Positions 37,902-51,826 of a stretch of DNA of 64,000 nucleotides are shown piece by piece (within the stretch, counting starts at the first letter, position 1; each line of letters starts with the position of its first letter). The stretch spans positions 744,001-808,000 of the forward strand of contig NZ_CP063164.1 in the NCBI RefSeq assembly GCF_014931715.1, given 5' to 3'. The DNA comes from Sulfurovum indicum (GTDB taxonomy: Bacteria > Campylobacterota > Campylobacteria > Campylobacterales > Sulfurovaceae). The notes beneath the pieces were generated by a model. That model saw nothing but the letters and a program-made list of their open reading frames with translations, made no database searches and was not told the origin of the DNA. The position numbers were made by a program, and so were the translations under genes.

Positions 37902-38635
37902 TCTTCTCCTTTTTCAGAAAAGGGAAAAAGAAGAGCAGGTGCGGGCCCCAACTTCGGGTGGACATCCATTCGCACCTGATACCCGGCATCGATGACGGCT
38001 CCCAAAGTATGGAGGAGAGCCTGAAGCTGCTGCGCGGGCTTGAGGCGCTTGGCTATGAAAAGGTCATTACCACACCCCACATCATGTCCGACAGTTACCC
38101 CAACAGCGCCGAGAGTATACTCACCGGGCTTGAAGCCTTGAGAAGTGCAGCTGCCAAAGAGGGCATTGCCCTGCATATCGAGGCAGCAGCAGAGTACTAC
38201 CTCGATGAGCACTTCTATGACGAGATGAAAAAAGAGCAGATACTGACGATAGCGGGGAAGTATGTGCTTTTTGAAAGCTCCTATATCTCCAAACCGCTTC
38301 AAATGGAGGAGATGATCTTTGCCATCGGAGAAGCAGGGTATGAGCCGATGATGGCGCATCCGGAACGCTGCCGCTACATCAGAGAACCCGAAAAGGAGTA
38401 CCGGCGCTTTAAAGAGCTGGGGGTACATTTTCAGGTAAACCTGAACTCCTTTGGCGGACACTACGGCAAGAGTGCAAAGTATCTGGCGAACTATCTGAGC
38501 GAAGCGGGGATGATAGACTTTCTTGGTTCGGACGTACACCATCAAAAGCATGTTGATACACTCCATGAGGTCTTTCATTCTGAAGCCTACCGCAAGATCT
38601 TTGAACATAATACGATCAAAAATGATACCCTCTGA
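37898..38635 (+). CDS. PHP-family tyrosine-protein phosphatase (CpsB/CapC/YwqE type)
   Basis: 245 residues. RVDIHSHLIPGIDDGSQSMEESL is the metal-binding N-terminal motif (H-x-H), then VITTPHIM, LFESSYISKPLQMEEMIFAI, MMAHPERCRYI and DFLGSDVHH, all typical metal ligands of the Mn-dependent PHP phosphatases. The partner substrate is most likely the Tyr tail of the kinase encoded just upstream, with which it overlaps by 4 nt. Confidence 0.94.
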   Translation: MIFSFFRKGKKKSRCGPQLRVDIHSHLIPGIDDGSQSMEESLKLLRGLEALGYEKVITTPHIMSDSYPNSAESILTGLEALRSAAAKEGIALHIEAAAEYYLDEHFYDEMKKEQILTIAGKYVLFESSYISKPLQMEEMIFAIGEAGYEPMMAHPERCRYIREPEKEYRRFKELGVHFQVNLNSFGGHYGKSAKYLANYLSEAGMIDFLGSDVHHQKHVDTLHEVFHSEAYRKIFEHNTIKNDTL

Positions 38636-38657
38636 TAAGAATTCATTTGATTTGTGA

Positions 38658-38683
38658 TATCATAAAAAAACAAAAACAAGGAG
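38658..38683 (+). promoter_or_regulatory. Putative -10 box and ribosome site for the export lipoprotein gene
   Basis: TATCAT at 38658-38663 and AAGGAG at 38678-38683, 7 nt before ATG 38691. The -10 is only a fair match. Confidence 0.4.
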
Positions 38684-38690
38684 TTGGAAT

Positions 38691-39440
38691 ATGTTGACGG
38701 GAAAAAGTATAGCAGCGGTTCTTTTGGCTTTTTTGCTCGCAGGGTGCGGAAGCGACTCTGACTACAGACTGCTGCAGACAGAACATGCGGTCGAAAACCA
38801 CAAAGTCACCGATAGGAGCATAGAGTACCGTATTCTGCCGCAGGACAGACTGGCGGTTGTACTCTACAAAGACCCGAATCAGGAAAACATGGTAAGCGCA
38901 GGTGAACTTGGACAGAGAATGACCAGTAAAGGGATACTTGTAGATACGGCAGGGAACATCACACTTCCTCTTATCGGAAAGGTAAAAGTAGCAGGCTTGA
39001 GCCAGACACAGGCTGCGGACAGGATCACAAAGCGCTACAAAAAGTACCTGAACACCCCTTCGGTCTACCTGGAAGTGCTCAATAAACGTATTTTGGTACT
39101 CGGAGAGGTCAGGAAGCCGGGTGTGATAGAACTGGACAAAGAGAAGATGACGCTCTTTGAGGCCCTGGCACATGCGGGAGACCTGACAGACTCTGCTGTA
39201 CGGGACAATGTGATCATTCTCTCCAACGATACGCACGGTATGCATATCAGACGTGTGGACCTGACACACTTTGACACGATGACCTATGCCAGTCTGATGC
39301 TCAGACCCAATGACATTGTCTATGTGCAGCCAAACAACTGGAAAGAGTTTAAGATCGCATCGGACAACTTCACGGCACCGTTCGAGACGATCAGCAAGGT
39401 CGCTTCGCCGTTTGTGACACTGAAGTACCTGGACAACTGA
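38691..39440 (+). CDS. Polysaccharide export outer-membrane lipoprotein (Wza-like, short form)
   Basis: 249 residues. Signal peptide with lipobox LLAGC, acylated Cys at 19. The polysaccharide export (Poly_export) domain is YRILPQDRLAVVLYKDPNQ through GNITLPLIGKVKVAGLSQTQAA, followed by one SLBB-type domain (ILVLGEVRKPGVIELDKEKMTLFEALAHAG) and the closing LRPNDIVYVQPNNWKE. Shorter than E. coli Wza (about 379), lacking the extra repeats and the C-terminal membrane helix; such short forms are common in Campylobacterota. It completes the kinase-phosphatase-export set. Confidence 0.92.
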   Translation: MLTGKSIAAVLLAFLLAGCGSDSDYRLLQTEHAVENHKVTDRSIEYRILPQDRLAVVLYKDPNQENMVSAGELGQRMTSKGILVDTAGNITLPLIGKVKVAGLSQTQAADRITKRYKKYLNTPSVYLEVLNKRILVLGEVRKPGVIELDKEKMTLFEALAHAGDLTDSAVRDNVIILSNDTHGMHIRRVDLTHFDTMTYASLMLRPNDIVYVQPNNWKEFKIASDNFTAPFETISKVASPFVTLKYLDN

Positions 39441-39479: not shown

Positions 39480-39905
39480 TCAGGATTTGGGAGGGACCCT
39501 CTTCATGATGGCAAACCAGTCTCTCTTAAAATGTTTTCTGATGTAGGCTTCATGATGAGGGACCGTGCAGGCCGAACAGTTCTGATGCAGCGCCTCTTTG
39601 CTTTCAAATACACTTCCATCCTCTGAATCGATACTGCAGTAGCTGTAGAGCGTTTTGCCCTCTCTTTCCCTGAAGCCCGAGTCGTCGAACCTGAAGTTGG
39701 GACAGGCGCAGAGATAGCAGTTGAGCAGATCTGTCTCATGGCATTTCCGGTTCTCTTTGTAGAGAGGACAGAAGTCCGGTTCGTGTATGACCATATTTTC
39801 AAAACGGAAATACGCTATGACCTCTTCATCACTCATATGCGTAAGCTTCTCCATGATCTTCCGATGCTTCTCTCCATGTTGTCTAAACCAGCTGCTGTAA
39901 CCCAC
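39480..39905 (-). CDS. Cysteine-rich small domain protein in the cobalamin locus
   Basis: 141 residues with eight cysteines clustered as DFCPLYKENRKC, LLNCYLCACPNF, YSYCSIDS and HQNCSACTVPHHE, matching the cysteine-rich small domain family (PF04071 type). The pattern suggests metal or Fe-S binding. The family often accompanies cobalamin genes in archaea and Campylobacterota, but its role is unknown. It is the last gene of the minus-strand cobalamin operon and overlaps cobC by 23 nt. Confidence 0.8.
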   Translation of the reverse strand: MGYSSWFRQHGEKHRKIMEKLTHMSDEEVIAYFRFENMVIHEPDFCPLYKENRKCHETDLLNCYLCACPNFRFDDSGFREREGKTLYSYCSIDSEDGSVFESKEALHQNCSACTVPHHEAYIRKHFKRDWFAIMKRVPPKS

Positions 39906-40413
39906 GTTCGATCCTTATAAATTCGAGATAGTCTATCTTTGCTTTTGAAAGACCAAGCAGATAGAGTATTTTTTGCAGTGTTCCGGCATGGGAACAGATG
40001 AGTATCTCTTTATCGTGAGGCAATTCTGCCATAAAATGCCTGATACGCCGTTCAAAAGCAGATGCACTCTCAGCACAGACATAGGCGTGCCATCTCTCCT
40101 CCTCTTTTAAAAGTGAAGCATCATAGTCCTGAAGACGGCAGATCTCATCGAAACTCTTTCCCTCTATATGGGCTTTGAAGCGCACTTCTCGAAGCCTCTT
40201 CTCAATGGAGTACTCCTTTATGCCCATCAGCTCAAGTGTCTGTGTACAGCGTACCAGATCGGAACTGTAGACAAGATCGAACTTCTGTCTCTGCAGCAGA
40301 GAGATCTTCTCTTTTTTAAAAAGGGAGGGCTCGATGGAGAGGTCGGTCCATCCGTTATACCGTCCCTGGTCTCTTGGGTGCAGCGCAGCATGGCGCAGAA
40401 GGGTCAGAGCCAC
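39883..40413 (-). CDS. cobC: Alpha-ribazole-5'-phosphate phosphatase-like histidine phosphatase
   Basis: 176 residues. The phosphohistidine motif is LTLLRHAALHPRDQGRYNG (RH at 7-8), VYSSDLVRCTQTLELM follows, and the second catalytic His is in ILICSHAGTLQKILYLLG. The GRYNGWTDLSI stretch is typical of CobC/phosphoglycerate-mutase-like members. In this context it should dephosphorylate alpha-ribazole phosphate or adenosylcobalamin phosphate after CobS. The start overlaps the end of cobS. Confidence 0.85.
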   Translation of the reverse strand: MALTLLRHAALHPRDQGRYNGWTDLSIEPSLFKKEKISLLQRQKFDLVYSSDLVRCTQTLELMGIKEYSIEKRLREVRFKAHIEGKSFDEICRLQDYDASLLKEEERWHAYVCAESASAFERRIRHFMAELPHDKEILICSHAGTLQKILYLLGLSKAKIDYLEFIRIERGLQQLV

Positions 40414-41150
40414 AGCAGGGCTCCTGCAGCAAAAAGTACTGTCTCCGTACTCTCCAGCGTTGTGCCAATGACATCACCGTTGATAAAACCGAGTTTCCGC
40501 TTTATGGCGGCAGCTGTGAGATAAGAGAGCAGAAGCCCCATGAAAAGCAGAACAATAAAGTGCATGCCTGCTGTCAGGAGACCGGCCAGTGTAAAGAGTA
40601 TAAGTGCAGACCATAGATAGGCAGAGGTGAGGGCATGCTTGAGCTGTGTCAGAAATGAAGATCTGAATCTCTGCGTGTAAAAAAGCACCAGGAGCGCCAT
40701 GCGGCTGACCGTCAGTATGGCAATGAACTCGGCAAAAAGATGGTGCATCAGCAAAAAAACAGTACCGGAGCCCTTGAGCAGTACAACAGTGATGCCCCAG
40801 AGCACTCCCATCGCCCCTGCGGCAGGATCTTTGATGACCTCATAGGCATCTTTTCCGGAATGGGAGGCATAGAGGGCATCTGCTACATCGATGACCGCTT
40901 CGGTGTGTATAAAGCCGTAAAAGACCATATAGGCTGCGGCAGAGAGTACAGTCCCGTACCATCCGAGTGTTTCAAGCAGATGAAAGAGTCCGACGGTCAG
41001 AAGACCCAGGACGATGCCCACAAGCGGGAAGAAGAGAAGCATCGCCCCCAGTACCTCCTTTGAAGCCAGGTCATCACTGCTTTTAAACCGTACAGGCAGT
41101 ATGGAAAAGTAGGAGAAAGCAAATTTTAAACCTAAATAGAGATTTCGCAC
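40404..41150 (-). CDS. cobS: Adenosylcobinamide-GDP ribazoletransferase
   Basis: 248 residues, membrane protein with about six hydrophobic segments. Joins adenosylcobinamide-GDP to alpha-ribazole (phosphate), the last assembly step. It opens LGLKFAFSYFSILPVRF, and FIHTEAVIDVADALYASHSG aligns with the family metal motif HLDGLADTADA, but the first Asp is Glu and the Gly is Ala. GAMGVLWGITVVLLKG and GDVIGTTLESTETVLF (usually NGxTGD) follow. Length and position leave little doubt about the family. Confidence 0.9.
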   Translation of the reverse strand: MRNLYLGLKFAFSYFSILPVRFKSSDDLASKEVLGAMLLFFPLVGIVLGLLTVGLFHLLETLGWYGTVLSAAAYMVFYGFIHTEAVIDVADALYASHSGKDAYEVIKDPAAGAMGVLWGITVVLLKGSGTVFLLMHHLFAEFIAILTVSRMALLVLFYTQRFRSSFLTQLKHALTSAYLWSALILFTLAGLLTAGMHFIVLLFMGLLLSYLTAAAIKRKLGFINGDVIGTTLESTETVLFAAGALLWL

Positions 41151-42148
41151 AAGGCCTCCTTCAGTCTCAGCAGTGCCTGCATATCTTTGACTGCTATCCT
41201 CAGATAGCGCTCATCGAGAAATTCGAAGTTCGAACAGTCGCGCACCATGATCCTGTACGGGGTAAGCTTTGACTGGAAGGCCGCTGCACTCATCTGCCTC
41301 AATTTTACCATAACAAAGTTGGCACAGGAGGGAAATACTTTCTCTATGGCAGGATGCGCTTCCAGCATACGGACCAGGTACTCCCTGTGCGCTTCGTTTG
41401 CGCTTTGTGACCTCTGTGCAAATGTGCTGTCCCTGAGTGCCGACTGCAGATAGAGGCTGTCAAACCGTGAGAGCTTCCAGAGGGGTTCTCTGCGGTGGAT
41501 CTCCTCTATATTTTCTGCTGAGGAGATAAGCGCGCCTATACGGATACCTGCGGCAGCGTAGAACTTTGTCATGGACTTGAGAACATAGAGCCGTCTGCAG
41601 CTTTTCAGATGGGAAAGCGCAGAGCCGGCAGCAGCAAAGTCCAGGAACGACTCATCTATCAGAACGGTACACTCCTTCTCCCTCCAGCGCTCCATGAGTT
41701 CCTTCAGGAGGTAGCAGCTTCCGTCCGGAGTAGAAGGGTTGACGAAGACTACCAGTGACCTGGGCCGGACCTCTGCATAGAGATCTTCGAAGCGGTGAAT
41801 GTGATCGATGGCATATCCATGGGCCTTTGCAGCTTTCTGGTACTCCAGGTAGAGTGGCGCATAGAGGGTGGTATGTTTCAGACCGAGCAGTCTGTAAAGC
41901 GCATAGATGGCTGAAGTCGCACCGTTGAAAAGTTCGATATTGGAAACATCCACACCGTAAAGCGCCGCAATGTCACTCTGCAGTGCGCTGTAGTCGGGAT
42001 AGGGTGCCGTATCGATACTGTTGAAATCGATATCGAGCTCCGGTTTGATGAAATTGATATTGGAGGAGAGGTCGATGACTTCATCTACCCTGCATCCATT
42101 CTCCTGTGCGAACCGGTAGATATCTCCTCCGTGTCCGTTCTCTCTCAT
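41132..42148 (-). CDS. cobD: Threonine-phosphate decarboxylase-like aminotransferase
   Basis: 338 residues, class I/II PLP fold. It starts HGGDIYRFAQENGCRVDEVIDLSSNINF, typical of CobD/CobC-type L-threonine-O-3-phosphate decarboxylase, with VFVNPSTPDGSCYLLKEL, VLIDESFLDFA and the PLP lysine in YVLKSMTKFYAAAGIRIGAL. It would supply (R)-1-aminopropan-2-ol phosphate for the CbiB reaction encoded two genes upstream in the operon. It overlaps the kinase gene by 4 nt and cobS by 19 nt. Confidence 0.88.
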   Translation of the reverse strand: MRENGHGGDIYRFAQENGCRVDEVIDLSSNINFIKPELDIDFNSIDTAPYPDYSALQSDIAALYGVDVSNIELFNGATSAIYALYRLLGLKHTTLYAPLYLEYQKAAKAHGYAIDHIHRFEDLYAEVRPRSLVVFVNPSTPDGSCYLLKELMERWREKECTVLIDESFLDFAAAGSALSHLKSCRRLYVLKSMTKFYAAAGIRIGALISSAENIEEIHRREPLWKLSRFDSLYLQSALRDSTFAQRSQSANEAHREYLVRMLEAHPAIEKVFPSCANFVMVKLRQMSAAAFQSKLTPYRIMVRDCSNFEFLDERYLRIAVKDMQALLRLKEALCEISI

Positions 42149-42933
42149 ATCATACGCTCCAGTCTCTTTAACAGGATACGATAGTCACGCCCTCCGGCAT
42201 ATCGTACAGCGGCATAATAGAGCAGTGCATACCTGATGTAGGCTCTGAATGCAAACGCATCCATTCCGGAGCCGTAGTATTCCAAAAGCGTCTCTGTCTT
42301 CTCTTCGTTAAGCGATGCTCCTTCAAAACACCAGCCTGCAGCGACAACTGCCAGATCGAAATGGAAATCCCCCAGGCATATATCGGAGAGATCATAGACA
42401 CCGCTCAGTCTGCCCTCTGTGAACTTGCAGTTGTCAGGGAAGAGGTCTCCGTGGATGATCCCATCTTTTTTCAGGACCAGGTCACTCTCTTTGAAGTGCT
42501 GAAGCAGGAGAGGGTACCCGGTCTCTGCGATCAGCGCTTCAAGCTCTTGCCTCTGAAACCTCTTGGTGCAGGATATCTTGATGTTTTGGCTTTGTGCATG
42601 AAATGCTTTGAGAAAAAGAGCGATCTGACTGATATGCCGGAGAGTCGGCTTATCTATGCTCTCTCCGGCTATCTGTGTGTAGACAATAGCCTGGCGGCCT
42701 TTGAGGAGAAACCTCTCTACTACCCTGGGAAGAGGCAGACCGCTGATGCCTGAAAGCAGATCGGTCTCATTCTCTATCATCGATAGAGGCGTCTCTTTTT
42801 CAAAAAGTTTCAGCACATAGAGATCGTCCAAAAGATAGACGGTCGCCATCACGCCGTTCTCGGTGGGAATGAGCCGGTAACGCCGGTATCTCTTGGGCAG
42901 TTCAGCGTGTGTTATGGAGGTTCTTATACCCAT
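42145..42933 (-). CDS. APH/choline-kinase-fold phosphotransferase in the cobalamin locus
   Basis: 262 residues. The fold signs are VMATVYLLDDLYVLKLFEKE (P-loop region and Lys), the catalytic loop IIHGDLFPDNCKF (H-x-D-x4-N) and the metal Asp segment GVYDLSDICLGDFHFDLA. Families with this fold phosphorylate small amines or homoserine. Lying between cbiB and the threonine-phosphate decarboxylase gene and overlapping both, it is a good candidate for the L-threonine kinase that PduX provides elsewhere (PduX belongs to another fold). Ethanolamine or aminopropanol would be alternative substrates. This is inference from context. Confidence 0.75.
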   Translation of the reverse strand: MGIRTSITHAELPKRYRRYRLIPTENGVMATVYLLDDLYVLKLFEKETPLSMIENETDLLSGISGLPLPRVVERFLLKGRQAIVYTQIAGESIDKPTLRHISQIALFLKAFHAQSQNIKISCTKRFQRQELEALIAETGYPLLLQHFKESDLVLKKDGIIHGDLFPDNCKFTEGRLSGVYDLSDICLGDFHFDLAVVAAGWCFEGASLNEEKTETLLEYYGSGMDAFAFRAYIRYALLYYAAVRYAGGRDYRILLKRLERMI

Positions 42934-43853
42934 ATGAGCGCTCCTAAGAGTAGAATAAAAAAGATATCGAATCGTTGTTGAAAGGAGAGTGCATGGCGGA
43001 TATCTTCAGTCGTGATGGTCTCTCTCCCCTCTCCAAAACAGGGTTTGGGTCTTATTTTTCCAAAATAGGAGGCGGCTCCTCCCACCCGTATGCCCAGAGA
43101 GAAGGCCATAGCCGAGATCGGGTATCCTGCATTCGGACTGTCGTGATCTCTTCCCTGGCGGAATACTTTAAAGAGGAGGCCGGGTGCCTCTGCCAACGCA
43201 CCGCCCAATACTGTGATCATAACAGCCGTAATGCGGGCAGGTATGTAGTTTGCCGCATCATCGAGCCTTGCAGCAAATTTGCCGAACCTCTCATACCTCT
43301 CATTTCTGTACCCCACCATAGAGTCGAGGGTGTTGACGGCCTTATAGACAAATGCACCGGGCAGTCCAAAGAGCAGCAGGTAGAAGAGTGGCGCAACGAC
43401 ACCGTCCGAGAGATTTTCGGCATAGGTTTCAATGGCCGCTTTGTTGATATCGGAACGGTTGAGAGATCCTGTATCTCGGCTGACAAGATAGCGGATGCTC
43501 TGAGGGTCGTCAATGACGCCCTTGACAGAATCGAAGAGCATTTTGGAGGCGATGGAGGTCGATCCTATTGTGCCCATAAGGATCGAAGTGATGAGTGTCG
43601 GGTAGTGGCTGCCAAGAGAGAGGAGAAGGGATTGGAGAAGATAGGAGATTGCCGCGACTATTGAAATGAGAGATATGCCAAGCCATGCACCCCGGATGAC
43701 ACTCTCTTTATAAAAGTGTTTTTCAAACCATTTGATGTAGTCACCCATCAGCACGACCGGATGGCGGACAAAGCGGAATTCGCCGACGGTGCGGTCAACA
43801 AGGTAGGCGATGAGAGCGGTTTCAGCGTACACTTTGTATGATCCTCTCTGCAT
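42924..43853 (-). CDS. cbiB: Adenosylcobinamide-phosphate synthase
   Basis: 309 residues, membrane protein. ETALIAYLVDRTVGEFRFVRHPVVLMGDYI opens it as in CbiB/CobD; VSRDTGSLNRSDINKAAIETYAENLSDGVVAPLFYLLLFGLPGAFVYKAVNTLDSMVGY and DDAANYIPARITAVMI are conserved family blocks. It attaches aminopropanol phosphate to adenosylcobyric acid. It overlaps cobQ by 32 nt and the kinase gene by 10 nt. Confidence 0.93.
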   Translation of the reverse strand: MQRGSYKVYAETALIAYLVDRTVGEFRFVRHPVVLMGDYIKWFEKHFYKESVIRGAWLGISLISIVAAISYLLQSLLLSLGSHYPTLITSILMGTIGSTSIASKMLFDSVKGVIDDPQSIRYLVSRDTGSLNRSDINKAAIETYAENLSDGVVAPLFYLLLFGLPGAFVYKAVNTLDSMVGYRNERYERFGKFAARLDDAANYIPARITAVMITVLGGALAEAPGLLFKVFRQGRDHDSPNAGYPISAMAFSLGIRVGGAASYFGKIRPKPCFGEGRETITTEDIRHALSFQQRFDIFFILLLGALIWV

Positions 43854-45150
43854 CCAGATGCCTCTTCATCTTTTTTACAAACCTCTCAATGGTCTCTCTC
43901 TCGTAGTGCTTAAACCACGCATCTGCAAAAAGTCCGTGTGAAAAGGTACCGTAGACTTTACCGTTCCTGTATTCGGAAGGGTAGGCGGCAGAAGTACCAT
44001 GGTGTATCTCATACTTTTCTCCGTTCCGCTTCAGTATCTTCTCTTTTTGGAAGTGTATCTCTCCCTCTATGAAGCCGAGCGCTGCCGCGGAAGCAGGCTT
44101 TTGCACCTCTATGCAGTGCTCATCCACGATGCGCTCGAACATCATCTGGTAGCCGCCGCAGATTCCGACAAGGTTGATCCTGCCCTCCCTGTAGTGTTGT
44201 TGAAGCTGGGCGAAGAGACCTCTCTCTTTAAGCCATGTCAGATCCTGCATCACAAGCTTGGAGCCGGGCAGGATGATACATTCAAATCCTGAGAGATCCA
44301 CATTGGTTCTGATGAACTCCAGGCAGATATCGGGATTGGCCAGCAGTGGTTCAAAGTCGGTGTAGTTACTCATCGCAGGGTAGGCGATGACGGCAATGCG
44401 CCGCAGGGCTCTGCTGCACTCCTGTGTATAGTTCATCAGGCTTTGCGAGTCCTCGAACCCAAGGTTGAAAGGAGTGTAGGGAAGTACACCCAGTACAGGG
44501 ATGCCGAATTCATTTTCGATGATCTCTATGCCTTTGTCAAAGAGGCTCAGATCACCTCTGAACTTGTTGATGATAACCCCGGCGACATTCTCTCTGAGTT
44601 GTTCCGGAAGCAGGTGGTAAACGCCGTAAACAGAAGCAAAAACCCCGCCTTTTTCGATGTCTGCTACAAGAATGATACGGGTATTGAAGCGGGTTGCGAT
44701 GAAGATATTGGAGAGATCCTTGTCCATCAGGTTCAGCTCTACCGGACTGCCCGCACCTTCTGCAATGACCACATCGTAACGCGCATCCAGGTACTCAAAT
44801 GCCTCCTGGACAATGGGTTTGAGCGTATCAAGATCGCGGTAGTACTCTCTGACATCTTTGGAGGCTGCCGTTTTGCCGCCAACAATGAGCGAGGCAGATG
44901 AACCGCGTCCCGATTTGAGCAGTACGGGGTTGTTGTGCCAGGAGGTGGGTACGCTGAGCGCTTTTGCCTGAAAGTACTGTGCTATGGCAATTTCGCTGCC
45001 GTCATCTGCTACATGAGCGTTGTTGGAGACATTTTGGGCCTTGAAGGGGGCAACGCTGCAGCCGGCTTCCTGCAGCAGCCGCCCGACAAGCCATGTAACG
45101 GTACTTTTACCCGCATCGCTGGAGGTGCCGAAAATAGAGATGTTATGCAT
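43822..45150 (-). CDS. cobQ: Cobyric acid synthase
   Basis: 442 residues, somewhat shorter than the usual 480-510. The N-terminal amidoligase domain has SIFGTSSDAGKSTVTWLVGRLL and APFKAQNVSNNAHV; the C-terminal type 1 glutaminase has LPGSKLVMQDLTWL, nucleophile Cys in LVGICGGYQMMFERI, and the catalytic His in YEIHHGTSAA and GTFSHGLF. It amidates four side chains of adenosylcobyrinic a,c-diamide. Since early corrin-ring genes are not in this window, its substrate may come from elsewhere in the genome or from salvage. Confidence 0.93.
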   Translation of the reverse strand: MHNISIFGTSSDAGKSTVTWLVGRLLQEAGCSVAPFKAQNVSNNAHVADDGSEIAIAQYFQAKALSVPTSWHNNPVLLKSGRGSSASLIVGGKTAASKDVREYYRDLDTLKPIVQEAFEYLDARYDVVIAEGAGSPVELNLMDKDLSNIFIATRFNTRIILVADIEKGGVFASVYGVYHLLPEQLRENVAGVIINKFRGDLSLFDKGIEIIENEFGIPVLGVLPYTPFNLGFEDSQSLMNYTQECSRALRRIAVIAYPAMSNYTDFEPLLANPDICLEFIRTNVDLSGFECIILPGSKLVMQDLTWLKERGLFAQLQQHYREGRINLVGICGGYQMMFERIVDEHCIEVQKPASAAALGFIEGEIHFQKEKILKRNGEKYEIHHGTSAAYPSEYRNGKVYGTFSHGLFADAWFKHYERETIERFVKKMKRHLDAERIIQSVR

Positions 45151-45644
45151 TATTTTAACCTTCTCTCCAGTCCAAGTTTTACCTCGTAGACCTCGTCGCA
45201 GAGCGCTGCCAGCCTCTGTCCTGTAGTGCCCGATCTGTCTACATATTTTCGGCTCTGTGCATCCATGGGGATCACCCCGGAGCCCACATCGTTAAGTACA
45301 AAAACAATGTTCGCCTCCAGCTTTGCCAAAGCATTTATCCGGGCAGATATCGTCTCTTCGCTCTCATGGAGTGTATTGAGTATCCACATACTCATGCAGT
45401 CGATGAGGTAGGTACCGTCACCTTTGATGACCTCGTCAAGCCTGACGCTCTCTTCGATGGTCGTAAAAGACTCCTTTCTCTGCAGCTGGTGTTTTGTGAT
45501 ACGCTCAGCCATTTCACTGTCGCCATAGCTGTTGTCGTAGGTAGCGATGTAGCAGGGTTTTCGACTGCCTGCAAGCGCAAGTGCTTTTTGCTCAGCTACC
45601 CGGCTTTTACCGGATTTCTGACCGCCGTAATAGAGAACTTTCAT
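45150..45644 (-). CDS. cobU: Adenosylcobinamide kinase / guanylyltransferase
   Basis: 164 residues. P-loop YYGGQKSGKSRVAEQKALAL (usual GGARSGKS), then CYIATYDNSYGDSEMAERITKHQ, the E-x3-L segment TTIEESVRLDEVI, VLNDVGSGVIPMDAQSRKYVDRSGTTGQRLAALCDEVYEV. The Asn-Asp-Val-Gly region replaces the more usual NEVG. It makes adenosylcobinamide-GDP for CobS. It shares a base with cobQ and overlaps the bluB-cobT gene by 4 nt. Confidence 0.93.
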   Translation of the reverse strand: MKVLYYGGQKSGKSRVAEQKALALAGSRKPCYIATYDNSYGDSEMAERITKHQLQRKESFTTIEESVRLDEVIKGDGTYLIDCMSMWILNTLHESEETISARINALAKLEANIVFVLNDVGSGVIPMDAQSRKYVDRSGTTGQRLAALCDEVYEVKLGLERRLK

Positions 45645-47383
45645 ACCAGGAACCCCTCTGTCTGCCGGGTGATCTCTTCGTGTGTTAATCCGTTCAGGAA
45701 CCCGTACATCAAAGCTCCGCCGGCTCCAACACCCTCCTTGGCCTCACCCTTGTCATACAGCTTCAAGGCAGGATGATGGCTCAATGAGAAGTCAAAGTCC
45801 GCATAGTAGGCGTTGACAGGGAACTCCAGCATCTCCAGCAGGGCTTTGATGTCAGAGTTCCTGTCTTTGGCTACCCATTTGGTGGTGCAAAGCATGATAT
45901 GCCCGAATGAGGCATGCTGCATATGGGGTACAGAGTGCCGGTATCTGTTGTTTCGCAGCGCTTTTATGACGGAGTTGGCTACAAGCAGTACGGCTGCCAT
46001 CTGGGTACCGCCTGCAAGTATAACAGGGAAACGTCCGTTGACACCCAGTATAAATCCGGCATTGAAGAGGAGCATGTTGTCAGATACAGAGCCCAGGATA
46101 TCAAAGATATCGGTGCTGCCTTTTGCATTGGTAAGCGCTTTGGTAATGGTCTTCTCCCGTATGGTGTCGGGTACCTCTTTGAAGCTTGAAGAGAAAAGCG
46201 CTTTGGCATCGTAGCCCAAAGCCAGTGCCGCTGTCGCGGCGGTAGTGGTACCGGAGGGGACGGATTCACCGAGAATGAGGTAGTCATCCCGAAGTCGGTA
46301 GCTCTCTCCGAAGGCATAGCCCTTTTCAAAGACCGCTTTGGCATCGATACCCGCGCCTTTGGCGATGCTTTTGCTTGGAGCAATGCCAAAGCGGTGCAGT
46401 CTGCCTTTGAACCTGGGAGGGGTTTTGAGCCCAAGATCGAGTGCTTCTATGCGTCCGAAGGGGTGCAGCAGATGGACTGCCCGGCTGATAAGAGCAGGGG
46501 TGGGGATACCTTTTTGGGTTTCAGGCAGTTTTTTGAGGCTTTTGAGTTTTCCGCGTGAGAGAAACTCTGCATCGAGCGTGGGGGTCAGGTGCATCAGTCC
46601 CGGCAGTCCTGCCTGGGAGATGCCTTTGATCTTCGCTGTTGCGGTATTGCTCAGAGCGAGCATAAAGGTGGCTTTTTTGTCTATGAGGGGCTGAAGAGAG
46701 CTTTTGTCTCCTGTAATGACCTCAATGGCACTGTGCGATCCTCTTTGTCCGGAGCTCTCTATGTGCAGAACGGTTTGTCTCTTTTTTTTCGCTTCCTGCC
46801 ACTTTTTGGTCTTGAGTTCCGGTTCATTGAGAAATCTTTTGACCTTGCCGACACAGAGGTAGCCGACAAGCTCATAGGCTTCTCCCAGTCCGAGCAGTCT
46901 GCGTACTTTTCCGGGACTGAGGATGCTGACCCAGCCGATACCGATATTCATGGCACGTGCCATCAGCCACATATTCTGTATGGCAGCTGCGACACTGTAG
47001 CGTCCGGTGTCCGGCTGGGATGTCTGTCCGAGGATACTTCCTCCCTGGTGGTGGTAGAAAACAGCAATATGCACAGAAGTCTCTTTCAGTGCTTCAAGTT
47101 TCAGTTTTTTGTACAAAGGGCGGTGTTTGAACTTTTTTTTACTCTTTTTGTAGGTTCGTTTAAAGTTCTCATAGACGGCATCCCGGATCTTGCTGTCTCG
47201 GATGACGACAAATTTCCATGGCTGTGAATAACCTACCGACGGCGCATGCATGGCAGCTTCAAGGATGGTGTCGATCTCTTCGCGGCTGACCGCTTCGCTG
47301 GTAAAGAGATTGCCTCTGACATCACGTCTGGCCCTGATGACTGCTTCGAGCGTTCGGGCATCCTGGAAAGAGAAACGTTTCAT
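45641..47383 (-). CDS. Fusion of 5,6-dimethylbenzimidazole synthase (BluB) and NaMN:DMB phosphoribosyltransferase (CobT)
   Basis: 580 residues. Residues about 1-215 are BluB-type flavin nitroreductase: RRDVRGNLFTSEAVS, APSVGYSQPWKFVVI, AIQNMWLMARAMNIGIGWVSIL and RRLLGLGEAYELVGYLCVG. Residues about 225-580 are a CobT of the archaeal/cyanobacterial sort (TIGR00303 type) rather than the enterobacterial sort: LHRFGIAPSKSIAKGAGIDAKAVF, ILGESVPSGTTTAATAALALGYDA and ILAGGTQMAAVLLVAN. BluB makes the dimethylbenzimidazole base from FMNH2 and CobT activates it to alpha-ribazole phosphate, so the fusion joins two consecutive lower-ligand steps. The start MKRFSFQDARTLEAVIRARR fits the BluB N-terminus. 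Confidence 0.9.
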   Translation of the reverse strand: MKRFSFQDARTLEAVIRARRDVRGNLFTSEAVSREEIDTILEAAMHAPSVGYSQPWKFVVIRDSKIRDAVYENFKRTYKKSKKKFKHRPLYKKLKLEALKETSVHIAVFYHHQGGSILGQTSQPDTGRYSVAAAIQNMWLMARAMNIGIGWVSILSPGKVRRLLGLGEAYELVGYLCVGKVKRFLNEPELKTKKWQEAKKKRQTVLHIESSGQRGSHSAIEVITGDKSSLQPLIDKKATFMLALSNTATAKIKGISQAGLPGLMHLTPTLDAEFLSRGKLKSLKKLPETQKGIPTPALISRAVHLLHPFGRIEALDLGLKTPPRFKGRLHRFGIAPSKSIAKGAGIDAKAVFEKGYAFGESYRLRDDYLILGESVPSGTTTAATAALALGYDAKALFSSSFKEVPDTIREKTITKALTNAKGSTDIFDILGSVSDNMLLFNAGFILGVNGRFPVILAGGTQMAAVLLVANSVIKALRNNRYRHSVPHMQHASFGHIMLCTTKWVAKDRNSDIKALLEMLEFPVNAYYADFDFSLSHHPALKLYDKGEAKEGVGAGGALMYGFLNGLTHEEITRQTEGFLV

Positions 47384-47435: not shown

Positions 47436-48380
47436 TCATGAGGACCTTCTTGCAAGCAAAAGATAGATAAAGAAGGGTGCCCCGATAAAGGAGGTCACCA
47501 CACCAATGGGGATATCTGATGCCGTACCGAGATTACGCGCTATGAGATCGGAGAGCACCAGAAAGAGACCACCGTAGAAAAATACCTGCAAAATAAGCGT
47601 GTCGGCACTCTGACGGTAGAGCTCTTTGACAATATGGGGAATGATGAGCCCTACAAATCCGATAGGACCGGTTATGCTCACTGCAACCCCTACGGCGAAC
47701 GAAACGAGGAAAAGCAGCATATAGCTGCTCTTTTTGACATTGATCCCTTTGAGGTAAGCGAACTCATAAGAGACAAGCAGCAGTTTGAGTGTATGGCGGT
47801 ACCGATAGATGCCCGGCAGCAGAACGAGGGATGTGAAAACAAGCGTGAGAATCTCTTTAAAACCGACTGTGTCCAGACTCCCCATCGTAAAACGCATGAT
47901 CTCGTAACTCTCCTGAAGCGAGGAGATATAGTACATAACCATCAGTGCAGCGGCATAGAAGAATGAAAGGGCAATACCCACCAGCAGCAGGGTGTTGGGA
48001 TCATAGCCTTTAAACCTTGCGGCAATGGCAAAGAGGATAATGACCGTCAGCATCGCACCGGCAAAAGCAAAGAAGGGGCTGAACGTGCCCAGGCCGAGTA
48101 TGATGGCGATGGCGGTAAAGAGTGTTGCGCCAGAGGCAACCCCCAGTGTGAAGGGGGTACTCATGGGATTGCGGAAGACCACTTGAAAGATGAGCCCGCC
48201 GAGTGAGAGGATCCCTCCTGCAAAAAAGGCCAGCAGTACACGGGGAAGGCGTATCTCGAAAAAGACCTGATGCTCCATACTCGCACCATCGGCAAGTTTA
48301 TTCAGAGGGAGGTCGATCTGTCCGAAAAAAGGTGCGGATATCAGCAGCAGGAGCGAGCTTAAAAAAAGTATTTTTTTCAT
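47436..48380 (-). CDS. btuC: ABC transporter permease, BtuC/FecCD family
   Basis: 314 residues, eight to ten membrane segments. EIRLPRVLLAFFAGGILSLGGLIFQVVFRNPMSTPFTLGVASGATL is the FecCD signature, with GPIGFVGLIIPHIVKELYRQ near the end, the coupling helix region. Located between the ATPase and the bluB-cobT gene and next to a BtuB-like receptor, it should import corrinoids. Slightly short for the family (about 325-335). 4-nt overlap with the ATPase. Confidence 0.9.
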   Translation of the reverse strand: MKKILFLSSLLLLISAPFFGQIDLPLNKLADGASMEHQVFFEIRLPRVLLAFFAGGILSLGGLIFQVVFRNPMSTPFTLGVASGATLFTAIAIILGLGTFSPFFAFAGAMLTVIILFAIAARFKGYDPNTLLLVGIALSFFYAAALMVMYYISSLQESYEIMRFTMGSLDTVGFKEILTLVFTSLVLLPGIYRYRHTLKLLLVSYEFAYLKGINVKKSSYMLLFLVSFAVGVAVSITGPIGFVGLIIPHIVKELYRQSADTLILQVFFYGGLFLVLSDLIARNLGTASDIPIGVVTSFIGAPFFIYLLLARRSS

Positions 48381-49075
48381 AGTGCTGTCACCACATGTGT
48401 GCCGATGTTCCGAACGGCACCGTCATAGAGCCGGTCAAGATGCGACTGTTCAAAGAACTCACTGCTTCTGCCGTGAAATGCCACCTCTCCCTCATGCAGA
48501 TAGAGAATATCAAATCCCAAACGGTAGGCCAGATCGAGGTTGTGGGTAATGATGAGCTTGCTTGGCAGGGTTCTCTCCTCTTTGAGCAGTGCAAAAAGCA
48601 AGCGCATACGGACAGGGTCGAGGTTGGCAGTAGGTTCGTCGAAGATCGTATAGTCTGCCCCGTGCAGGAGGGCGGAAGCGGTCAGAAGCAGTTGTGATTC
48701 CCCTGAGCTGAGCAGTCTGCACGGTTTGCCTTTAAGGTGTGCAATGCCTACACGCTCCAGTACCGCATCGATGGTCAGGTTTCGGTTAAAATGCGAAAGT
48801 GCCAGGAAATCCTCTACCGGAAGATAGCTATCGTAGATCTCCAGTTTGGGAGGGATATAGTTGATGATCCCGGCTCGTTTCTCTCCATAGACTTTGGAGG
48901 GAATGATATCGTCAACACGTACTGCTTCGGAAGGTATAAGTCCGCAAAGGACTTTGGCAAGGGTGCTCTTTCCTACCCCGTTGGCACCAAGAATGACAAG
49001 GTGTTTCCCTTTTTCCAATGAGAAAGAGATCCCGCTGAGGATGGCGTCGGTATAGTTACTGATCTGCAGCGGCAT
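48377..49075 (-). CDS. btuD: ABC transporter ATP-binding protein, BtuD/FepC family
   Basis: I start it at 49075 (MPLQISNYTDAILSGI, 232 residues); the frame is open to 49147, but that extension overlaps btuF and looks non-coding. No clear Shine-Dalgarno is seen, so translation may be coupled to btuF, which it overlaps by 20 nt. Walker A is LGANGVGKSTLAKVLCGL, the signature is RLLSSGESQLLLTASALL (LSSGE instead of LSGGQ), and Walker B is YTIFDEPTANLDPVRM. Confidence 0.9.
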   Translation of the reverse strand: MPLQISNYTDAILSGISFSLEKGKHLVILGANGVGKSTLAKVLCGLIPSEAVRVDDIIPSKVYGEKRAGIINYIPPKLEIYDSYLPVEDFLALSHFNRNLTIDAVLERVGIAHLKGKPCRLLSSGESQLLLTASALLHGADYTIFDEPTANLDPVRMRLLFALLKEERTLPSKLIITHNLDLAYRLGFDILYLHEGEVAFHGRSSEFFEQSHLDRLYDGAVRNIGTHVVTAL

Positions 49076-49880
49076 GGAGGATCGCTTTGAAATCATTGAG
49101 AAAAAGTACAAGACGGTCACTGGGAATGCCCGCGTACTCCTTGTCAATGATGTAAATGTCTCTGTTCCGGGCTGCGGTAACAGGCAGTTTCAGCCATGGA
49201 TCGATAAGCTCTTGCTTTGTCACTCCCCGTGCTTTCATCCCGTGTGCAAGCAGAATAACAATGTCGGGGTTGGCAGCAATGATGTTTTCCCGGTTGAGTA
49301 TGGGCTGTCCTTTGCGGTTTGAGTGCAGGGCATTGGTATTGCCCGAAGCATTGATGATGTCATCAAGGTAAAGATTCTGTCCTGCGACAAAGATCTGCTT
49401 GACCAGTTGTGTGTTATGCCCTATGACAATCAGTATCTTTCTGTCCGAAACGATACCCTTGGTCTCTTTCAGCGCACGGTCGATATCGGCTACAATGTTG
49501 TTGGCTCTCTCCTCCTTTTGCAGTACTCTTCCAAGCGCTAAAACAGCTTCTGTGATATGCGGCAGTCTGTCGATTCGGATGATCCGGGTCCTGATGCCGA
49601 GCTTTTGCAGTTTTTGGGCCAGTTTTGCATTGTTCTGCTGCATGATGACCAGTGTCGGTCTGAGTGCAATGATCTTTTCAAGATCAGGGGAGAAATAGCC
49701 GCCTACTTTAGGAACACTCCCGGAAGCCTCCGGGTAGGTGGCGTAAGTGGTGTTGCCCACGACCTGATTGCCCGCTCCAAGGGCATAGACGATCTCGTTG
49801 ATGGCAGGTGAGAGGGTAACAATGCGCTCCTGCGCGAAGGCAGAAAAAGCAAGTGAAAGTAACACCATCCAAAATTTCAT
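49056..49880 (-). CDS. btuF: Corrinoid ABC transporter substrate-binding protein (BtuF-like)
   Basis: 274 residues. Signal peptide MKFWMVLLSLAFSAFAQ. Class III periplasmic-binding fold: RIVTLSPAINEIVYALGAGNQVVG, YPEASGSVPKVGGYFSPDLEKIIALRPTLVI and NAKLAQKLQKLGIRTRI in the N-lobe, DIVILLAHGMKARGVTKQELIDPWLKLPVTAARNRDIYIID in the C-lobe. First gene after btuB, 83 nt downstream of it. Confidence 0.9.
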   Translation of the reverse strand: MKFWMVLLSLAFSAFAQERIVTLSPAINEIVYALGAGNQVVGNTTYATYPEASGSVPKVGGYFSPDLEKIIALRPTLVIMQQNNAKLAQKLQKLGIRTRIIRIDRLPHITEAVLALGRVLQKEERANNIVADIDRALKETKGIVSDRKILIVIGHNTQLVKQIFVAGQNLYLDDIINASGNTNALHSNRKGQPILNRENIIAANPDIVILLAHGMKARGVTKQELIDPWLKLPVTAARNRDIYIIDKEYAGIPSDRLVLFLNDFKAILHAAADQ

Positions 49881-49900
49881 ATGTACCCCTTTAAAAGGAA

Positions 49901-49920
49901 GGTATAAGACCTGCCCCTGT
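49901..49920. repeat. Partial copy of the dispersed CTGCCCC palindrome
   Basis: AAGACCTGCCCCTGT in the btuB-btuF gap resembles the right half of the repeat at 55643-55665. The rest of the 83-nt gap shows nothing I can name. Confidence 0.4.
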
Positions 49921-49963
49921 AATTTGACTCTCTGCTCCTGGCTGCCTGCGCTTTACGGTCTAT

Positions 49964-51826
49964 CTAGATTTTTCCTCTTACCCCGATGTAGAAGGCTCTG
50001 GGGCTTGTTGCATAGCCATAAACAGTTTGGTAGTATTTGTCACCGAGATTCTCGATTTTACCATAAACCTGAACGTTCTCTGTGACCTGATAGTCCGCTG
50101 TCACATTGAATAGAGTATATTTTCCTGTCTGGGCACCCTGATTGTCTGCCCGGTCATAACGTTCTCCGATGTATTGGGCATCTGCCCCGATGTGCAGTTT
50201 TTCAATACCGTAGTAGTCTACAGCAAGGTTGAAGGTCTCTTTTGCACGTCTTGCCAGTGCTTTTCCGTCATTGTCCTCCGCGCTGATGAGTCGTGTATAG
50301 TTGGTGTTGAACAGTATACCGTCAAAGATCTCTTTTTCATAGGCAAGTTCGATACCGTCGATCTTTGAAGTTCCGGCTATATTCTCATAACCTCCACCGA
50401 TCCAGTTTCCGTTTGCATCATACTGGCTTACATACTGGATCATATCATCGATCTTATTGTTAAAGTATGTCACTTTGAAATCTTTATATGCCACAGTGAC
50501 ATCATAACTCTTGATACTTTCAGGTGTCAAGTCTGCATTACCGCTGAACGGATCATAGAGGTTGTACATAGTAGGTACATTGTAGGCTGTACCGTAATTG
50601 AATGAGGTGACCAGTCCCTGAATATGTTCATGGATATGTTTGATACCTATCTTTCCGGTTATTTCATTGTCAAAGTCACTGTATCTGTCGTAGCGTAGAG
50701 ACTCGGTCAGTATGGTCGTTCCGCCCATTACACCCTCAAGGGTATTGGTATTGGTTGCAAAAAAACCGGTAGAATCATAAGATTTGTTCAGGCTGTTCTC
50801 ATGGCTGTACTCTTTTGTATCAAGACCGACAAGTATGAAGTCCTTTGTTCCGTAACCGATTTTGGAGTTGACCCCGAACTCATCGATGCTGCCGTCAAAG
50901 TGCTGGCTGTATGTCGCATCTGGGTAGGTACGGCTGAAGTCGGAGCGTTGTGCGTATATATTGAGCTCGTTGAAGCTGTCAATGTGGTTGAAGTTCATTT
51001 TTGTGAACTTGTAGGTACTTTCGAGTCTGTAGTCACCATCGGGGTTGAAAGAGTAGGTAGAGAAATCAAAAGGATCCGCATCACCTTTCCCCTCTATGCG
51101 TGTATGCAGGAGGTCCACCTTGTTGGCTGCATTGAAGCTGAAGCCGGCCTGTATGTTCAGTGTTTTGTTTCTATACTCATCGTCTTCATACTGGTCGATA
51201 TCTTCACCATAAGGAGCTACCGTGGTAAATCCGTCCGTATCGACAATGTTGTAGCTGAGTTTGAGGTAGTAGTTCTCAGCTGCAGTAGAGAGTGTGGCAC
51301 CGTATTTCCAGGTATTGAAACTTCCGCGTTCGATGTGTGCAGAGGCGTGTGTACCCGGTTGTGCCTTTTTGGTGATAATATTGATCACACCGGCACTGGC
51401 ATCTGCTCCCCATATACCGGACTGTGCCCCTTTGACCACTTCGATCTGTGCAATGTCATCGATCATCAGATCGGCAAAGGGTGCACCGCCAAGAGATGTC
51501 GGATCATTGTAGCGTACGCCGTCGATGAGTACGAGGGTATACTTGCTGCTCATACCGCGAAGGAAAAGAGAAGTGCTTTTCCCGATGCCGCCGTTGCTCA
51601 CATAGGATACACCGGCAATAGAGCCAAGTACCTGTGCTACAGTGGTATAGCCTCGGGCTTCGATCTCCTCTGCTGTGATCACATCGACGTTGGAAGTGAC
51701 TTCATCAAGACTCTGTGCCGTTTGTGTAGCTGTGGTGACAATGATCTCTCCGAGATCTTCCTGTGCGAATGTGTGTGTGGTTAAAAGCAGAGCCGGTATC
51801 AGGCTGAGTGTAATGTTTTTTTTCAT
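49964..51826 (-). CDS. btuB: TonB-dependent receptor, BtuB-like
   Basis: 620 residues. Signal peptide MKKNITLSLIPALLLTTHTFAQ, TonB box near EIIVTTATQT, plug domain with VIDVITAEEIEARGYTTVAQVLGSIAGV-like sequence, FLRGMSSKYTLVLIDGVRYNDP and IEVVKGAQSGIWGADASAGVINIITKKA, then a 22-strand barrel ending FYIGVRGKI. Plug sequence and gene context mark it as a vitamin B12 receptor. AGGAAAACAGAC precedes the ATG. Upstream lies a long inverted-repeat region rather than a recognisable cobalamin riboswitch. Confidence 0.93.
   Translation of the reverse strand: MKKNITLSLIPALLLTTHTFAQEDLGEIIVTTATQTAQSLDEVTSNVDVITAEEIEARGYTTVAQVLGSIAGVSYVSNGGIGKSTSLFLRGMSSKYTLVLIDGVRYNDPTSLGGAPFADLMIDDIAQIEVVKGAQSGIWGADASAGVINIITKKAQPGTHASAHIERGSFNTWKYGATLSTAAENYYLKLSYNIVDTDGFTTVAPYGEDIDQYEDDEYRNKTLNIQAGFSFNAANKVDLLHTRIEGKGDADPFDFSTYSFNPDGDYRLESTYKFTKMNFNHIDSFNELNIYAQRSDFSRTYPDATYSQHFDGSIDEFGVNSKIGYGTKDFILVGLDTKEYSHENSLNKSYDSTGFFATNTNTLEGVMGGTTILTESLRYDRYSDFDNEITGKIGIKHIHEHIQGLVTSFNYGTAYNVPTMYNLYDPFSGNADLTPESIKSYDVTVAYKDFKVTYFNNKIDDMIQYVSQYDANGNWIGGGYENIAGTSKIDGIELAYEKEIFDGILFNTNYTRLISAEDNDGKALARRAKETFNLAVDYYGIEKLHIGADAQYIGERYDRADNQGAQTGKYTLFNVTADYQVTENVQVYGKIENLGDKYYQTVYGYATSPRAFYIGVRGKI

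Follow-up and report, generated by a model that had tools for sequence, protein, structure and literature searches.

How Sulfurovum indicum obtains threonine phosphate for the aminopropanol arm of cobalamin is the question raised by a stretch of its genome of 64,000 nucleotides (contig NZ_CP063164.1, positions 744,001 to 808,000; the whole stretch is here called the window). The gene cluster in it covers the steps of nucleotide-loop synthesis save the phosphorylation of threonine. Phosphorylation of cobinamide is the work of CobU and CobT needs no kinase, so that threonine phosphorylation is the kinase step left without a gene. A gene for a putative kinase of the APH fold overlaps both neighbours in the aminopropanol arm, cobD and cbiB, and a sequence-only reading of the window had proposed its product for the missing step. 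The matter reaches beyond one organism. Most B12 makers have no annotated enzyme for threonine phosphorylation, and a family ready for cloning and assay would close the threonine-kinase gap for a phylum common in sulfidic and vent habitats.

The kinase gene and its cluster

The open reading frame is exactly where the sequence-only reading had placed it, on the minus strand with an ATG start and 262 codons. The two motifs named there, HGDLFPDN and YDLSD, and the overlap with both the decarboxylase gene and cbiB are likewise confirmed from the sequence: the 3′ end of the kinase gene overlaps cobD by 4 bp and its 5′ end overlaps cbiB by 10 bp (Table 1). In an alignment of 86 kinases H161, D163, F165, D167 and N168 of the catalytic loop are invariant and G162 and L164 nearly so; D181 of the metal-binding motif is also invariant. 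The only Pfam family found on the protein is APH (PF01636), at 69.3 bits (cut-off 23.2). Recurrence of the same gene in cob clusters of many genera shows that the reading frame is not a chance one. A role in defence was dropped, as PADLOC gave no match.

The minus strand carries every gene between 39480 and 51826, in the order btuB, btuF, btuD, btuC, bluB-cobT, cobU, cbiP, cbiB, kinase, cobD, cobS, cobC and the gene for a Cys-rich protein. The CobD of the window aligns with Salmonella CobD (1lc5) at 1e-28. In relatives, too, btu genes are found upstream of the cob cluster. No cobalamin riboswitch was found in the window by Rfam search at the gathering score.

Table 1. Features of the cob/btu cluster of the window
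Feature	Position	Strand	Basis
Cys-rich 141-aa protein	39480..39905	-	no Pfam or NCBIfam match; conserved cob neighbour
cobC, alpha-ribazole phosphatase	39883..40413	-	TIGR03162, 1.8e-20
cobS, cobamide synthase	40404..41150	-	NF001278, 1.9e-21
cobD, threonine-phosphate (or serine-phosphate) decarboxylase	41132..42148	-	TIGR01140, 3.2e-73; below equivalog cut-off (247/290 bits)
candidate L-threonine kinase, APH fold, 262 aa	42145..42933	-	ORF, ATG start
metal-binding motif YDLSD, kinase residues 180-184	42382..42396	-	sequence and alignment
catalytic loop HGDLFPDN, kinase residues 161-168	42430..42453	-	sequence and alignment
cbiB, adenosylcobinamide-phosphate synthase	42924..43853	-	TIGR00380, 226 bits, over cut-off
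cbiP/cobQ, cobyric acid synthase	43822..45150	-	NF001989, 443 bits
cobU, adenosylcobinamide kinase/guanylyltransferase	45150..45644	-	NF004469, 5e-37
bluB-cobT fusion, DMB synthase and CobT	45641..47383	-	BluB residues 8-203, CobT-type 223-578
btuC, btuD, btuF, btuB, corrinoid uptake	47436..51826	-	names by position and sequence inspection, not family search

Some features of the surroundings are of separate interest. BluB and CobT form a single fused protein of 580 aa in the window; in Sulfuricurvum and several Arcobacter their genes are separate, often with the kinase gene between them. The Cys-rich protein is kept in the majority of the phylum’s cob clusters, and a cluster of the same kind in Sulfurospirillum multivorans encodes SMUL_1548, described as a ‘cysteine-rich domain protein’. 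Adjoining the cob operon on the plus strand (35610–39440) is what appears by inspection to be a polysaccharide export cluster, with a Wzc-like tyrosine kinase that ends in a YGYGYG tail, a CpsB-like phosphatase and a Wza-like protein.

Other kinases of the genome

The sequence-only reading had held that PduX and BluE, both taken there for GHMP-type kinases, are lacking. For PduX this is true of the complete genome of 2.21 Mb. A genome-wide search gave only two GHMP kinases: ThrB, at 272 bits for a cut-off of 168, and IspE, at 307 bits for one of 191. It gave no PduX or third GHMP kinase, and PduX is thereby ruled out as the threonine kinase of S. indicum. For BluE the statement does not stand as worded: a review terms it nonorthologous to PduX (PMC8123684), so a GHMP search alone cannot exclude a homologue of it. 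The genome’s own ThrB makes the window kinase unneeded for threonine synthesis. Its remaining APH genes resemble AmgK or thiamine kinase or are unassigned.

Most of the relatives tested have two GHMP kinases and some incomplete drafts have one; in nearly all the other genomes tested that carry the window-type kinase (carriers), there are two, of ThrB and IspE size. A third is present in six genomes (G069, G044, G365, G283, G391 and G173), and in four of these six it is approximately 334–338 aa long.

The nearest relative, type II homoserine kinase

That the APH fold includes type II homoserine kinase (HSK2), whose substrate is a close analogue of threonine, was a further point of the first reading. 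By profile, sequence and fold HSK2 is the nearest relative of the window kinase. The best NCBIfam models for the kinase are two HSK2 equivalogs, PRK05231 (NF003558; 5.7e-22) and thrB_alt (TIGR00938; 2.1e-14), with scores under the equivalog cut-off in both cases (78.1/271 and 53.6/255.9 bits, respectively); for comparison the HSK2 of Methylotuvimicrobium, a full member, scores 318 bits. The best PDB chain by sequence is 2ppq, a homoserine kinase of Agrobacterium. It is also, well ahead of the rest, the best solved match (Z 27.9; 252 residues at rmsd 2.1) to an AlphaFold2 model of the kinase that was built from 15 family members and has a mean pLDDT of 91; it is followed by an N-acetylhexosamine kinase (Z 23.2), and the aminopropanol kinase 6ef6 stands lower (Z 20.3). 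As modelled, the overall fold is the same as that of HSK2, though a fold match alone does not decide the substrate.

HSK2 and the window kinase share the APH fold, the HGDxFxDN loop and the metal Asp. Both keep G27, G90, H112, Y220 and R244 (window numbering) and mostly W201 and C202. The differences are as distinct. The window kinase has 262 aa in contrast to the approximately 310 of HSK2, and Asn30, Asn199 and Phe240, present in 100% of 32 HSK2 rows, are A30, A199 and Y240 in it and are replaced in most Campylobacterota rows of the alignment. A Lys42–Glu56 pair marks the kinases of the main Campylobacterota clade, that of the window included; at these positions HSK2 has Thr or Gln and a non-acidic residue. 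The setting differs as well, since the window kinase sits in cob clusters and its genome has a separate, genuine ThrB. In a tree of 89 kinases, in which the placement of three long-branch rows is unsure, a supported branch (96/100, length 1.98) parts the Campylobacterota kinases from canonical HSK2. The separate branch and the lost HSK2 residues indicate, at the level of sequence, that the kinase is not an HSK2 and belongs to a sister subfamily.

A longer HSK2-like family of approximately 300 aa also occurs in Campylobacterota, away from cob genes (L151 and L153–L157, also L075–L078), and those of its genomes that were tested have a pair of GHMP kinases, of ThrB and IspE size.

Linkage to cobamide synthesis in the phylum

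Among 318 Campylobacterota genomes of high quality, a strong match to the kinase occurs in 29 and CbiB in 40. CbiB is present in 28 of the 29 carriers (27 when G004, whose CbiB match is weak, is left out) versus 12 of the 289 other genomes, a co-occurrence for which Fisher’s test gives p of about 1e-27 to 1e-29 with kinship ignored. The carriers are spread over 15 genera in five families. The single CbiB-less carrier, G173, has cobD beside the kinase gene at a contig end. Where a genome has both, the kinase gene and cbiB are at most about 9 kb apart in 22 of 28 instances. A sample of 150 genomes from the family to which the window belongs has the kinase in 22, CbiB in 40 and both in 18. Many sulfur-oxidising Campylobacterota have this kinase within their vitamin B12 gene cluster.

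Neighbours within 450 bp were counted at 40 cob-linked loci, to which the window locus is extra. They are bluB or cobT at 24 loci, cobD at 12 and cbiB at seven, every one of them on the kinase strand. The order cbiB–kinase–cobD is found in the window and at three further loci (L061, L065 and L129). While the position varies with lineage the association persists, and this favours function in the pathway over a frozen accident. Action of the kinase in cobamide nucleotide-loop assembly is accordingly close to certain.

Lone copies outside a cob cluster occur at five loci (L072, L073, L064, L067 and L068), where they lie by a RibF-like gene (G051, G025) or by argJ (G008, G018, G109). G051 is a close-type carrier with no CbiB in its draft genome. 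One contig with a cob-cluster kinase (L142/L297; G458:C128) is filed as from a Desulfosporosinus MAG; its kinase groups with those of Arcobacteraceae and a whole-genome tool places G458 in the order of the window, so the record is probably mislabelled.

Genomes with CbiB but without the kinase

The kinase is absent from 12 of the 40 CbiB-positive genomes of the phylum sample and from about 20 in the family sample. Four of the 12 are members of a Sulfurospirillum-like group, g33, and three of these were examined by cluster. The clusters of G219, G386 and G398 match the published order SMUL_1541–1552 of S. multivorans, which produces a norcobamide (PMC7755780). They have no kinase gene, and their CobD is only 28% identical to that of the window. 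G412, which is of the same genus as the norcobamide-type Sulfurospirillum, has a window-like cluster with the kinase present. The norcobamide route takes serine phosphate, an ordinary intermediate of serine synthesis, and needs no threonine phosphate. The CobD homologue of S. multivorans, SMUL_1544, is said to work on serine phosphate supplied in this way.

The other kinase-less CbiB genomes have no recognisable PduX, though two of them, G044 and G365, do have a third GHMP gene. In the non-carrier clusters that were read there is no alternative kinase; the genes in the gap are toxin-antitoxin-like, for an ATPase, for a short-chain dehydrogenase or hypothetical. Comparison of CobD and CbiB between carriers and non-carriers gave no clear diagnostic residue. 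Another APH kinase was considered as the stand-in in non-carriers and rejected: those inspected are AmgK-like or thiamine-kinase-like, several beside pnuC. A thiamine-kinase-like APH gene is found in kinase-negative Campylobacterota at L226–L228, L231, L232, L355 and L361, and in several of these genomes it overlaps or abuts a pnuC-like transporter gene. As non-carriers are without PduX too, its absence counts for less than it first seemed to. Three explanations offer themselves for the non-carriers: use of serine phosphate, a ThrB that phosphorylates threonine as well, or a further enzyme.

Proposed function and its alternatives

On the proposed route the kinase would phosphorylate L-threonine with ATP to give L-threonine O-3-phosphate. 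This would be decarboxylated to (R)-1-amino-2-propanol O-2-phosphate by CobD, whose gene overlaps that of the kinase on the downstream side; CbiB, whose gene overlaps it on the upstream side, would attach the amine phosphate to adenosylcobyric acid. The kinase would descend from HSK2 or share an ancestor with it. A homoserine-kinase ancestor is plausible, as homoserine and threonine are constitutional isomers.

Of the proposals available, that of the sequence-only reading is the best, and the probability that the kinase is a non-orthologous APH-fold L-threonine kinase is put at roughly 0.6. We infer an active enzyme that takes L-threonine in preference to L-serine, aminopropanol or alpha-ribazole and whose product goes to CobD. 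The linkage to cobD and cbiB in genomes without pduX is as expected of an L-threonine kinase (EC 2.7.1.177). The lack of PduX, the descent that HSK2 as nearest relative suggests, the association with CbiB and the absence from norcobamide-type clusters all point the same way. Against it, the 12 CbiB-positive genomes have neither the kinase nor PduX, and the neighbour is bluB or cobT more often than cobD. The lone copies, the close-type carrier G051 and the want of a diagnostic residue in CobD also tell against it.

A different linker precursor is an unlikely substrate, though less so than the alternatives below. It could be L-serine, leading to ethanolamine phosphate and so to norcobamides, or, in salvage, free aminopropanol or ethanolamine. 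The phylum is shared with the norcobamide maker S. multivorans, and aminopropanol and choline/ethanolamine kinases of the APH fold exist. However, a serine kinase would make what serine synthesis already provides, and the norcobamide-type clusters are those without the kinase. An aminopropanol kinase would be redundant, since CobD of the same operon itself yields the phosphorylated amine, and the fold is nearer to homoserine kinase than to 6ef6.

Slightly less likely again is a role in the lower-ligand arm or in salvage, for instance as an alpha-ribazole kinase beside BluB, CobT and CobC. The prevalence of bluB or cobT among the adjoining genes speaks for it, as does the presence of bluB in the cob cluster of 18 of 31 carriers versus one of 15 non-carriers (p 0.001, kinship ignored). 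However, alpha-ribazole phosphate comes directly from CobT with no kinase required, and cobT is common in non-carrier clusters too (12 of 15, with 27 of 30 for carriers). There is no bluB nearby in 13 of the 31 carrier clusters, cbiB and cobD flank the kinase gene at the four loci given above, and among known enzymes the kinase is most closely related to an amino-acid kinase. The link to bluB would also be expected if true cobalamin were the product of carriers and nor- or pseudo-cobamides that of non-carriers. Tentatively, the threonine-kinase proposal may be extended: presence of the kinase, often alongside bluB, would identify organisms that make true cobalamin, and kinase-less cob clusters would make norcobamides from serine phosphate. 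The carriers without bluB and the cbiB–kinase–cobD loci are the grounds for preferring this explanation of the bluB link to a lower-ligand role.

It is improbable that the kinase is simply the organism’s homoserine kinase II, in the cob operon by chance. HSK2 is its best profile and fold match, and a few Methylococcales do have a canonical HSK2 within a cob cluster. However, the genome has a GHMP ThrB above the curated cut-off and almost all other carriers tested have the ThrB- and IspE-size pair; the HSK2 scores of the kinase are far under the cut-offs, it forms its own clade with HSK2 residues lost, and its linkage is to CbiB rather than to threonine genes. Least probable by a further step is an unrelated small-molecule kinase, for an antibiotic or a sugar, riding in the operon: the breadth of function in the APH superfamily and the lone copies by argJ and the RibF-like gene would allow it, but same-strand cob linkage in 40 loci at shifting positions and phylum-wide co-occurrence with CbiB argue against it.

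Comparison with known systems

If carriers and non-carriers do differ in linker chemistry, whether an organism makes cobalamin or norcobamide would be predictable from sequence. A 2018 survey of cobamide biosynthesis noted that a genomic signature for linker type was lacking (PMC6461909); were the kinase such a marker, it would be one. The counterpart within the phylum is the S. multivorans system, where SMUL_1544 belongs to an alternative linker route and clusters of its type are without the kinase.

The aminopropanol kinase 6ef6 resembles the window kinase in having the APH fold and acting on a related small molecule, but its context is a catabolic bacterial microcompartment and there is none at the window. 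A further parallel is offered by some Methylococcales. At most of their loci examined, canonical HSK2 is beside a DUF2782-like gene, so named after the thrB locus of Pseudomonas. In three genomes, including that of Methylotuvimicrobium buryatense 5G, it directly follows cobD–cbiB, and in another it is beside bluB. In the two of these Methylococcales in which HSK2 was searched for (G150 and G151), the cob-linked gene is the only strong HSK2 match, with two GHMP kinases in each genome. These are faint hints that an ordinary HSK2 may also supply threonine phosphate there.

The known L-threonine kinases would share their reaction with the window kinase. PduX of Salmonella has the same place, feeding CobD, but it is of the GHMP fold, whereas Pfam and the fold search find only APH in the window kinase. 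BluE of Rhodobacterales would likewise catalyse the same reaction, and it also co-occurs with DMB-type cobalamin synthesis. The literature search gave no paper joining homoserine kinase, threonine phosphate and cobalamin; a related proposal surfaced separately. In Dehalobacter restrictus, which is without pduX, the cob-operon gene Dehre_1608 was proposed to encode an L-threonine kinase and named cbiU, and its product resembles the archaeal-type, phosphoglycerate-mutase-like homoserine kinase (PMC4285132). The likeness is considerable: a relative of homoserine kinase, in a cob operon, in a genome without pduX, and the same deduction drawn. CbiU is nevertheless of a fold unrelated to APH, and TIGR02535, its phosphoglycerate-mutase-like domain, is not among the NCBIfam matches of the window kinase, which would thus be a parallel case. 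If the present proposal is correct, one reaction would be served by three unrelated folds, GHMP in PduX, phosphoglycerate-mutase-like in the proposed CbiU and APH in the window kinase. Two of the three would have been drawn from homoserine kinases, and BluE may be a fourth kind.
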